Shown: one piece after another, positions 32,110-64,000 of the stretch | Layout of the letters: every line of letters starts with the position of its first letter | Position numbering within the stretch: the first letter of the stretch is position 1 | DNA from: Cryptosporangium minutisporangium | GTDB lineage: Bacteria > Actinomycetota > Actinomycetes > Mycobacteriales > Cryptosporangiaceae | Direction of reading: 5' to 3' | DNA: 64,000 nucleotides | Assembly (NCBI RefSeq): GCF_039536245.1 | Contig: NZ_BAAAYN010000070.1 | Location: 21,783 to 85,782 of the forward strand | Translations under genes and position numbers: made by a program | Notes under the pieces: generated by a model | Database searches by the model: none | Told to the model about the DNA's origin: nothing | The model's input: only the letters and a program-made list of their open reading frames with translations

Positions 32110-32205
32110 TCAGCCCCGCTCACCCAGGCGCACGGTGTTGGTACGGGTTCGGTGCCGCTCCCCGGTGGTTAGCTCCACCTCGACTACGCCAGTCGCGACG
32201 ACGCG
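32110..32205 (-). promoter_or_regulatory. ZTP riboswitch (pfl motif) controlling glyA
   Basis: Read on the minus strand, this leader shows the conserved blocks of the ZTP/pfl aptamer in order: CGCGACUGGCG (32187-32197), a GGUGG/CCACC hairpin, the invariant ACCACCGGGGAGCG, a variable linker, and GCGCCUGGGU (about 32121-32130). The aptamer ends about 60 nt before the glyA start. The gap contains a GGCGG/CCGCC hairpin (near 32080-32097) and the GAGGAG ribosome site, which could form the expression platform. The aptamer binds ZTP or ZMP, signalling folate stress. The match is by eye; a covariance search would settle it. Confidence 0.9.
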
Positions 32206-32292
32206 AGCCTATCGCGTGGGCGAACGTGCGCGGCCGTCGCTGCGGCCACGACCACCGCCCGACCGCCGCCGCCCAACCGGCGCCGCGCGAAG

Positions 32293-32533: not shown

Positions 32534-33736
32534 GTGTCCCGTCAGAGCCGTGACGTGGTCTTCGTCGACGGCGTCCGCACCCCGTTCGGCAAGGCCGGGC
32601 CCAAGGGGATCTACGCCGAGACGCGCGCCGACGACCTCGTGATCCGCACCATCCGTGAGCTGCTCCGCCGCAACCCGTCGCTGCCGCCCGAGCGGATCGA
32701 CGAGGTCGCGATCGCGGCGACCACCCAGACCGGCGACCAGGGCCTCACGATCGGCCGGACCGCCGCCCTCCTGGCCGGGCTGCCGAAGTCGGTGCCGGGC
32801 TTCGCCGTCGACCGGATGTGCGCGGGCGCGATGACCGCGGCCACCAGCGTCGCCGGTGGCATCGCGTTCGGGGCGTACGACGTCGCGATCGCCGGCGGCG
32901 TCGAGCACATGGGCCGCCACCCGATGGGCGAAGGCGTCGACCCGAACCCGCGGTTCCTCTCCGAGCGGGTCGTCGACGCGTCCGCGCTGGTGATGGGTCA
33001 GACCGCGGAGAACCTGCACGACCGCTTCCCGCACCTGACCAAGGAGCGGTGCGACGCGTTCGCGCTGGGCAGCCAGCAGAAGTACGCCAAGGCCCTCGCG
33101 GACGGCAAGATCCAGCAGGACCTGGTGACGGTCGCCACCCGCAGCGCCGAGAAGGGCTGGGGCCTGGCCACCGCCGACGAACCGCCGCGTCCGGAGACGA
33201 CGCTGGAGGGCCTCGCCAGCCTGAAGACGCCGTTCCGCCCGCACGGCCGGGTCACCGCCGGTAACGCGGCCGGTCTCAACGACGGCGCGACCGCGAGCAT
33301 CCTGGCCGCCGAGGACGTCGCCCGCGAGCTGGGGCTGCCGATCGGTGCCCGGCTCGTCTCCTACGCCTTCGTCGGCGTCGAGCCCGAGGTGATGGGCGTC
33401 GGTCCGGTGCCGGCCACCGAGAAGGCGCTGGCCAAGGCCGGCCTGAGCATCGACGACATCGGCCTGTTCGAGCTGAACGAGGCGTTCGCCGTCCAGGTGC
33501 TCGCGCTGCTCGACCACTTCGGCATCGCCGACGACGACGAGCGCGTCAACCCGTGGGGTGGCGCGATCGCGATCGGTCACCCGCTGGCGTCCTCCGGCGT
33601 CCGGCTCTTCACCCAGCTCGCGCGGCACTTCGCGGAGCGTCCGCAGGTCCGGTACGGCCTCACCGCGATGTGCATCGGCATCGGCATGGGCGGGGCGGTC
33701 ATCTGGGAGAACCCGAACTGGGAGGGCAACAAGTGA
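32534..33736 (+). CDS. acetyl-CoA C-acyltransferase (thiolase), FadA type
   Basis: 400 residues from a GTG at 32534 with a strong TGGAGGA site. Thiolase cleaves 3-ketoacyl-CoA with CoA at the end of each beta-oxidation round. The nucleophile is Cys96 (VDRMCAGAMTAA), with the catalytic His in GHPLASSGVR and the second Cys in TAMCIGIGMGGA. The order and the 4-nt GTGA overlap with the FadB-type gene indicate one operon and probably a two-subunit trifunctional complex, as in other actinobacteria. The GGGAGGG that ends this gene also serves as ribosome site for the next. Confidence 0.95.
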   Translation: MSRQSRDVVFVDGVRTPFGKAGPKGIYAETRADDLVIRTIRELLRRNPSLPPERIDEVAIAATTQTGDQGLTIGRTAALLAGLPKSVPGFAVDRMCAGAMTAATSVAGGIAFGAYDVAIAGGVEHMGRHPMGEGVDPNPRFLSERVVDASALVMGQTAENLHDRFPHLTKERCDAFALGSQQKYAKALADGKIQQDLVTVATRSAEKGWGLATADEPPRPETTLEGLASLKTPFRPHGRVTAGNAAGLNDGATASILAAEDVARELGLPIGARLVSYAFVGVEPEVMGVGPVPATEKALAKAGLSIDDIGLFELNEAFAVQVLALLDHFGIADDDERVNPWGGAIAIGHPLASSGVRLFTQLARHFAERPQVRYGLTAMCIGIGMGGAVIWENPNWEGNK

Positions 33737-33805
33737 GTTCTTTTCGACCGACCGCTGCGGACGGCGTTCAGCCTGCGGGAACACCTGAGGTTGAAAAGAG
33801 TTCAT
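33733..33805. repeat. 73-bp palindromic element, copy A (5' end of fadB-type gene)
   Basis: Starts exactly with the GTG start codon (GTGAGTTCTTTTCGACC) and ends with GGTTGAAAAGAGTTCAT, whose complement is ATGAACTCTTTTCAACC. It is the same length (73 bp) as the copy at 63390 and matches a slightly longer copy at 51368. It supplies the first 24 codons of the downstream gene in frame. Both strands are open through it. Confidence 0.8.
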
Positions 33806-51351: not shown

Positions 51352-51443
51352 GCCTCTCGCCTTCCCACGGAATTCTTTTCGACCGACCCCTGCGCAGGTC
51401 GCTCAGCCTGCCGCCGGGATACGGGAGGTGGAGAAGAGTTCAC
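51348..51443 (-). CDS. possible 31-aa leader ORF coupled to yvcK
   Basis: Reading the minus strand, GTG at 51443 opens a frame (NSSPPPVSRRQAERPAQG, then [12 protein letters not shown]) that ends with TGA at 51348-51350. This TGA overlaps the yvcK GTG by the usual 4 nt. The frame consists almost wholly of palindromic element B plus 18 nt. A GAGGGG stretch lies 11 nt before the GTG. No homology to known leader peptides is evident; it may be coincidental. Confidence 0.35.
   Translation of the reverse strand: MNSSPPPVSRRQAERPAQGSVEKNSVGRREA
51368..51443. repeat. palindromic element, copy B (5' of yvcK)
   Basis: About 76 bp; reads GGAATTCTTTTCGACCGAC at the left and GGTGGAGAAGAGTTCAC at the right. 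It aligns along its length with copies A (33733) and C (63390), with 3 nt extra in the middle. The left terminus has CG before GAATTC rather than the RT of copies A and C, so only the right terminus keeps a start codon, facing yvcK. Confidence 0.75.
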
Positions 51444-62992: not shown

Positions 62993-63389
62993 CAGACCTC
63001 CTCGTTGGCCGTGCGGGTCGAGCGTACCGGCGACGAGACGGTCGACGGCCCACCCGAACTCTCCTCCCCGGTTTACCCATAGTGGCGTTCACCACGCTCG
63101 TCGACGCCGACTCGCAGCGGGGCATCCCGGGCCGAATACCCCCTTCCCGGGCCGGTGGGACGCAGGTTGTCTCAACTGCCACTTCTGACTCAGTGGTCCG
63201 CACGGTGTCGAGGTGCTCCGAACGCGAGGCCGATGACGCCGCCTCGTGTCACGATGGGGGCCGACGCTCGCCGCGCCGCTCCGGCCGCGGCCGGCCGACG
63301 ATGACCGTGCGTACCGCACACGGACGGTTGACACGACCGCTCGGCGCTGCCCGGACCGGGTGCTGGGCGGAGTTCCTGGGAGGTTGGGG
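62993..63389. promoter_or_regulatory. divergent intergenic region, acyltransferase / hydrolase
   Basis: 397 bp that must contain promoters for both directions. A TTGACA at 63328-63333 is a possible -35 for the plus-strand hydrolase, without a convincing -10. No small gene with a ribosome site was recognised. Confidence 0.35.
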
Positions 63390-63462
63390 ATGAATTCTTT
63401 TCGACCGACTCCTGCAGACGGCGATCAGCCTGCAGGAATCGGTGAGGTTGAAAAGAGTTCAC
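63390..63462. repeat. 73-bp palindromic element, copy C (start of terminal hydrolase)
   Basis: Begins with the ATG start codon (ATGAATTCTTTTCGACC) and ends GGTTGAAAAGAGTTCAC, complement GTGAACTCTTTTCAACC. An inner stem pairs CCTGCAG with CTGCAGG. It is identical in length to copy A. Both strands are open, each beginning with a start codon. Confidence 0.8.
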
Positions 63463-64000
63463 CGTCCGTGCTGCCCGGCGCAGAACCTTTCCTTTTCGAC
63501 GCTGGGTCCGACGCGCCCGCGGGCGTTCTGCTGAGCCACGGCTTCACCGGCACTCCGCAGTCGATCCGCCCGTGGGGCGAGGCGCTGCACGCCGCCGGGT
63601 ACACGGTGGCGTGCCCCCTGCTGCCCGGACACGGCACCCGCTGGCAGGACATGAATCGCACGACGTGGCGCGACTGGTACGCGACGGTGGAGCAGGAGTA
63701 CCTGGCGCTGCGCGACCGGCTCCCCCAGGGCGCACCGGTCGTGGTCGGTGGCCTCTCCATGGGCGGCACGCTCGTCACTCGCCTGGTCCAGGAGCATGCC
63801 GGACGCGATACCGAGCCGGCCGGCCTCTTGCTGGTCAACCCGTCCTACCTCACGCTGCGCAAGGACGCTGCCCTGCTGCCGGTCGTCAGCCGTGTCCTGG
63901 GGTCGTTCCCCGGGATCAGCGACGACATCAAGAAGCCGGGCGCGCACGAGCTCGCCTACGACCGGCTGCCGCTCAAGGCCGCGGCGTCGCTGAGCCAGCT
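63390..64000 (+). CDS. alpha/beta hydrolase (carboxylesterase type), 3'-truncated by window end
   Basis: 203 residues are visible before the window ends. ATG at 63390 with GGGAGG 6 nt before. Residues 1-24 are encoded by the palindromic element (NSFRPTPADGDQPAG, then EVEKSS); the family-like part begins SVLPGAEPFLFDAG. The core shows LLSHGFTGTPQSIRPWG (oxyanion loop), LLPGHGTRWQDM and the nucleophile elbow VVGGLSMGGTLV. It resembles monoacylglycerol-lipase or carboxylesterase proteins often linked to plsC-type genes in actinobacteria. The catalytic Asp and His lie beyond the window. Confidence 0.88.
   Translation, partial: MNSFRPTPADGDQPAGIGEVEKSSPSVLPGAEPFLFDAGSDAPAGVLLSHGFTGTPQSIRPWGEALHAAGYTVACPLLPGHGTRWQDMNRTTWRDWYATVEQEYLALRDRLPQGAPVVVGGLSMGGTLVTRLVQEHAGRDTEPAGLLLVNPSYLTLRKDAALLPVVSRVLGSFPGISDDIKKPGAHELAYDRLPLKAAASLSQ

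Follow-up and report, generated by a model that had tools for sequence, protein, structure and literature searches.

A very probably mobile 71-bp palindrome extends the start of a hydrolase gene in Cryptosporangium minutisporangium

How does an alpha/beta hydrolase come to begin with a peptide that also opens an unrelated protein? The question is raised by a 64,000-nt stretch of the C. minutisporangium genome (the window; contig NZ_BAAAYN010000070.1, positions 21,783 to 85,782), in which the predicted N-terminus of the hydrolase reads NSFRPTPADGDQPAGIGEVEKSS joined to SVLPGAEPF. A reading of the sequence alone had attributed this block to a DNA element, copy C, followed directly by the family-like part of the protein, and copy C does encode the peptide MNSFRPTPADGDQPAGIGEVEKSSP immediately before SVLPGAEPF. 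The good ribosome site that it had placed 6 nt before the ATG is present as well, and the two proteins with similar first residues are indeed unrelated, a Hydrolase_4 protein for copy C and an enoyl-CoA hydratase / 3-hydroxyacyl-CoA dehydrogenase (ECH/3HCDH) for another copy, copy A. The parts of the locus are as follows, in window coordinates.

63378-63383, + strand: ribosome-binding site GGGAGG, with a 6-nt spacer to the ATG; found also before the start in the congeners G003 and G001
63390-63392, + strand: start codon ATG, corresponding to the ancestral start of the empty site (ATG in G003, GTG in G001)
63391-63461, + strand: copy C, a 71-bp palindromic element (TGAATTC...GAGTTCA), from DNA search, arm pairing and fold
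63391-63406, + strand: left arm of copy C, TGAATTCTTTTCGACC, from arm pairing and covariation
63446-63461, + strand: right arm of copy C, GGTTGAAAAGAGTTCA, from arm pairing and covariation
63393-63464, + strand: net gain of 72 nt (24 codons) over the empty sites of G003 and G001, with a boundary that may slide by a base
63390-64000, + strand, continuing beyond the window to about 64259: alpha/beta hydrolase gene (Hydrolase_4, 289 aa), from Pfam

The T and G of the hydrolase ATG double as the first two letters of copy C as drawn. In a DNA alignment of the start region from four congeners, the window's own genome (G000) and G002 are filled and G003 and G001 are empty; this comparison rests on MAFFT, unlike the scripted comparison used for the other copies. 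The empty site of G003 reads GGGAATG-TCCGTGCTGCCC, the window GGGGATG-(72 nt)-TCCGTGCTGCCC, and the empty-site proteins of G003 and G001 start with M-SVLPGAEPF. Ribosome site, start codon and frame are all retained in the filled gene, which is longer by 24 codons. The earlier idea that the element replaces the start has to be given up, as the ancestral start codon is kept, with a matching ribosome site in G003; since exactly 72 nt lie directly behind it, copy C extends the start. The insertion took place before G000 and G002 split or is held by shared descent, and it added 24 codons in frame. The two filled copies differ at 2 of 71 sites, both at third codon positions, which is too few to use.

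These empty sites bear directly on the reading in which copies A and C share the N-terminal block by protein homology, as a genuinely conserved segment or signal. That reading would account for the likeness of the peptides at the start of both proteins, and it now deserves hardly any credence, since the empty sites lack precisely the block and thereby already refute it. The 24 residues are absent from 39 of 41 hydrolase loci (11 from one search and 30 from a search of 101 genomes) and present in G000 and G002, both of which carry the element elsewhere, and copies of the element also sit between genes or, within genes, in any of three frames. In the orthologue comparison proposed earlier as a check, the first 24 residues are thus confined to these two genomes among the 41 loci, and none of the loci shows the block in a genome that lacks the element elsewhere, so that the attribution to a DNA element stands. 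In most of the other hydrolase loci a start only a few residues from a VLPGAEPF-like motif is a possible reading. The hydrolase was found in 78 of the 101 genomes, and its named relatives are actinomycetes and their MAGs (one MAG labelled Bifidobacterium breve).

The element belongs to a family. In G000, a draft of 9.23 Mb in 152 contigs, a plain DNA search returned 20 places at E <= 1e-3, and a covariance model built from them gave 109 rows at E <= 1, many of which are one place on both strands. Across the genus 90 places were tabulated at E <= 1e-5, namely 63 in G000, 22 in G002, 4 in G003 and 1 in G001, from 87 fetched loci after 29 opposite-strand duplicate rows had been dropped (4 of 26 places counted in G002 are absent from the fetched set); 64 of the 90 copies are exactly 71 nt long. 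Of the 101 genomes selected as relatives, the 4 that match belong to a single genus, and 97 are without a match among the best 46 candidates scored per genome under stricter filters; of 396 genomes across the phylum, with the best 11 candidates per genome scored under such filters, only the window's own matched. Because few candidates were scored per genome and the filters were stricter, weak families elsewhere could be missed. G000 and G002 have three copies in common, with flanks that match (L016/L127, L096/L122 and the hydrolase pair L001/L043), the first two pairs being far more diverged than the hydrolase pair. Two further copies lie in the window.

33734-33804, + strand: copy A; empty in G001, G002 and G003, net +72
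51369-51442, + strand: copy B, an intergenic copy of 74 nt; the site is empty in G002 (net +77) and in G003 (net +74)

A second, more diverged sequence type (for example L072, L077 and L126), CGACCGGCG...GAGGTCGCTCGACCTC...GCCGGAGGT, has another inner hairpin with the same length and ends, and probably comprises older copies; assignment to subfamilies I and II used a rough motif criterion and is wrong for some copies (such as L006). A single-copy variant of 174 bp in G003 (L181:2988-3161) has the ends of the 71-bp element around an unrelated, longer interior.

The exact size of the hydrolase insertion is not peculiar to that gene. For ten further 71-nt copies, at least one comparison with an empty relative yields a net gain of exactly 72 nt, and for most of them every relative tested does so, as listed here by relatives with net +72 out of relatives tested.

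3 of 3: L005, L003, L100b, L120, L080
2 of 2: L072
2 of 3: L002
1 of 1: L036, L019
1 of 3: L119

Other sizes occur with diverged flanks (L002 once 83, L119 twice 75, L011 90 and 99, and copy B as given above). Eight of the ten copies lie in frame inside genes or at their very start, the Pfam hosts being ECH/3HCDH (copy A), an arabinofuranosidase C-domain, a glycosyltransferase 2, QueA, a TROVE/VWA protein, an HTH_3 protein, riboflavin synthase and a PAS-GGDEF-EAL protein; the last two have the insert within the domain match itself. In a DNA search that scored the best 40 candidates per genome, the matches listed for G000 include no duplicate of the stretch in riboflavin synthase or in QueA. 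At copy A the upstream gene ends with the element's first TGA, while the ECH/3HCDH gene begins with GTG at 33733, runs through the element and keeps its frame. Judged by element-free orthologues, in-frame insertion has therefore occurred in unrelated protein genes, the hydrolase and the eight others. The best explanation, in which high confidence is placed, is that copy C is a non-autonomous mobile palindrome of 71 bp (net 72 bp) spreading within one genus, inserted in frame behind the ancestral start of the hydrolase and likewise in other genes.

With a length gain divisible by three and open frames in the element, insertions into genes would often be survivable. Most of them have nevertheless probably been lost, since 14 of 85 copies are intragenic compared with 83% of the TG sites in the same loci; the set of 85, used for the flank and gene-position statistics, is the 90 minus three orthologous duplicates and two weak copies. 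Outside genes, 18 of 71 copies adjoin a start or stop codon compared with 8.5% of TG sites (p 2e-5). Selection would leave insertions at starts, at stops and in tolerant genes. These gene contexts rest on a home-made codon-usage caller, which missed the hydrolase start by putting it at GTG 63468, so that copy C itself was counted as intergenic. All 14 copies called intragenic are 71 nt long, as against 50 of 76 others (p 0.008), a result that calling genes across the copies favours. Of these 14 among the 90, 5 are read in the forward frame NTG-AAT, 6 in the reverse frame NTG-AAC and 3 in a third frame.

In all likelihood the inserted peptide serves no selected function. The sequence-only reading had noticed that many differences between copies A and C fall at third codon positions and had considered coding constraint possible; in fact 2 differences fall at first, 4 at second and 4 at third codon positions, and third positions account for 41% in five forward-frame intragenic copies compared with 38% in 17 others. 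Coding constraint on the peptide was therefore rejected, as codon-position counts are alike within and outside genes and open frames exceed the expectation from shuffles only slightly, at 51 of 64 in the forward direction (74% expected) and 59 of 64 in the reverse (78%).

What has been conserved is the hairpin. The outer arms of copy C, 16 nt each, are 88% complementary, and its fold has a z of -5.7, with none of 200 shuffles folding as well. In an alignment of 62 copies 95.6% of the arm cells are paired, double changes are found at 11 of the 16 arm pairs with far lower values in slid controls, and 25 cells are changed on both sides compared with 4.6 (sd 1.9) in shuffles, none of 500 being as high. 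The arms keep pairing through double changes, which supports the view that the hairpin matters to the element, through mobility or through hairpin-templated repair, and such repair could be what keeps the arms paired. In 82 of 90 copies the better fold is that of the forward strand. Arm cells with G.T outnumber those with A.C by 122 to 19 in the 62 copies, but three pairs, possibly shared by descent, supply 96 of the 122 (26 to 18 without them), so that the claim of a preferred strand rests more on the fold energies.

A stable, covarying hairpin that folds better on one strand, with an excess next to starts and stops, is also what would be expected of a regulatory RNA leader kept at gene starts for translation control. 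Such a role is quite improbable for this family, since the host genes are unrelated, both orientations are present, some copies are intragenic, orthologues do without the element, and the predicted accessibility of the start region does not differ clearly between filled and empty genes.

Read by eye, the insertion junction is T^G at 8 of 11 sites (L001, L002, L003, L005, L036, L080, L100b and L119) and not T^G in relatives for the other three (L019, L072 and L120), with TG making up 4.7% of background dinucleotides on both strands. Ahead of the T, the flanks of the 85 copies favour A at -2 and G at -1; past the right end, the third base is preferentially G. The two bases between TTCA and the target G are far more variable than the arms, mostly T followed by C or T, with TC commonest. 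The base at +1 shows a weak dependence on the one to the left of the element: when the flanks were examined for pairing or guide-like contacts, their mutual information had p 0.004 at -1/+1, the lowest of 16 tests, with two others below 0.05. No fixed target duplication was found at the resolved empty sites.

This last result weighs on the classical alternative of a MITE, a shrunken IS whose 16-bp terminal inverted repeats are recognised by a DDE transposase and which makes a short target duplication (2 nt, XT). The 16-bp arms, the small size and the many copies fit such an origin, as does a 2-nt direct repeat at the ends of 17 of 85 copies compared with 8.7 expected, which is the single flagged offset among 96 combinations of offset and length. 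At the resolved empty sites, however, the right-hand dinucleotide (TC, TT, CC or GC) does not repeat the left one. In the four genomes a search with the arm pattern (up to 2 mismatches) found no paired ends at an IS-like distance among the matches listed, and 12 regions with apparently lone ends held no autonomous carrier and were mostly truncated or decayed copies; L190 is a shortened copy, and one region in G003 is the 174-bp variant L181. A MITE of this kind is accordingly considered unlikely.

The strand asymmetry, the lack of a clear target duplication and the short flanking target would also suit a REP or an IS200/IS605-type element moved by a Y1 transposase (RAYT). Y1_Tnp has no match in any of the four genomes and does match in 5 of 14 control genomes, and the element consensus has no GTAG or CGTC tag, which makes this origin very improbable. 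Two other candidates were tried and rejected. Reverse transcriptase (PF00078, RVT_1) is found in none of the four genomes (3 of 14 controls matched), which speaks against a retro-element. Mobilisation by IS110 is not supported, as the transposase numbers run against copy number, with 1 match in G000, 11 in G001, 2 in G002 (one under the cut-off) and 0 in G003 for 63, 1, 22 and 4 element places, respectively.

For the mobile palindrome it is envisaged that an enzyme acting in trans would recognise the hairpin on one particular strand and join it in at T^G, leaving no fixed target duplication. A more specific version can be put forward tentatively: the mobile unit may be a 72-nt single-stranded hairpin, of DNA or RNA, inserted at T^G without target duplication by an enzyme outside the Y1, IS110 and reverse transcriptase families, with two element-coded variable bases kept at the right end. 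Since start codons (RTG), TGA stops and overlaps of the two all contain the target, such an element would be steered to gene boundaries and would build new in-frame protein termini there.

The nearest parallel is provided by the Rickettsia palindromic elements (RPE), reportedly described by Ogata et al. in 2000 and 2002. Passages of PMC2229807 and PMC10969869 present RPE as small palindromic repeats of 105-146 bp in the small genomes of intracellular bacteria, located between genes and in frame inside unrelated conserved protein genes, with host proteins that apparently tolerate the inserts and no known enzyme. The family described here is likewise a dispersed palindromic repeat found between genes and in frame in unrelated protein genes, and it is set apart from those descriptions by its 71-bp length in a 9.2-Mb genome, its net gain of exactly 72 nt and its T^G preference. 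By analogy, on a comparison of descriptions, it would work like RPE yet form a separate family of fixed length with a T^G preference, and an RPE-like insert is predicted to be a translated, tolerated protein segment.

Other palindromes offer partial likenesses. Wolbachia palindromic repeats and those of Methanocaldococcus jannaschii, as cited in the reference lists of PMC2229807 and PMC3733652, are likewise palindromic with coding potential in other hosts, and palindromes inside genes are also discussed in part of PMC6649704. REPs, which a section of PMC3733652 gives as 20-40 bp, GTAG/CGTC-tagged and tied to RAYT transposases, share with the 71-bp element hairpins near genes, ends that often give a stop codon, G-T pairing in the stem and some intragenic copies; the present element differs from them in size, in the missing tag and in the lack of a RAYT match in the four genomes. 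The MITEs RUP, ERIC and QMITE1, according to passages of PMC10969869 and PMC2229807, are similarly non-autonomous, with terminal inverted repeats and occasional in-frame fusions, whereas the 71-bp element has no clear target duplication and no partner IS among the matches listed. An earlier description of the 71-bp family was not found in the open-access literature.

With its short target, an exact insertion size that is a multiple of three and numerous filled and empty sites to compare among a few congeners, the family makes the chemistry of insertion and its cost to host proteins directly testable. To our knowledge the enzyme and target of RPE are unknown, and palindromes in frame within working genes have been an open question since RPE. 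For annotation, predicted N-terminal extensions in this genus can be mobile DNA and not protein evolution.

Two minor observations concern RNA structures. One copy in G000 (contig C26, L012:2272-2341) lies in the apparent loop of an intrinsic terminator (CCCCTC ... GAGGGG, then T's), which may or may not still work. In the window itself the only Rfam match, above the gathering score, is a ZTP (pfl) riboswitch aptamer at 32115-32206 on the - strand.
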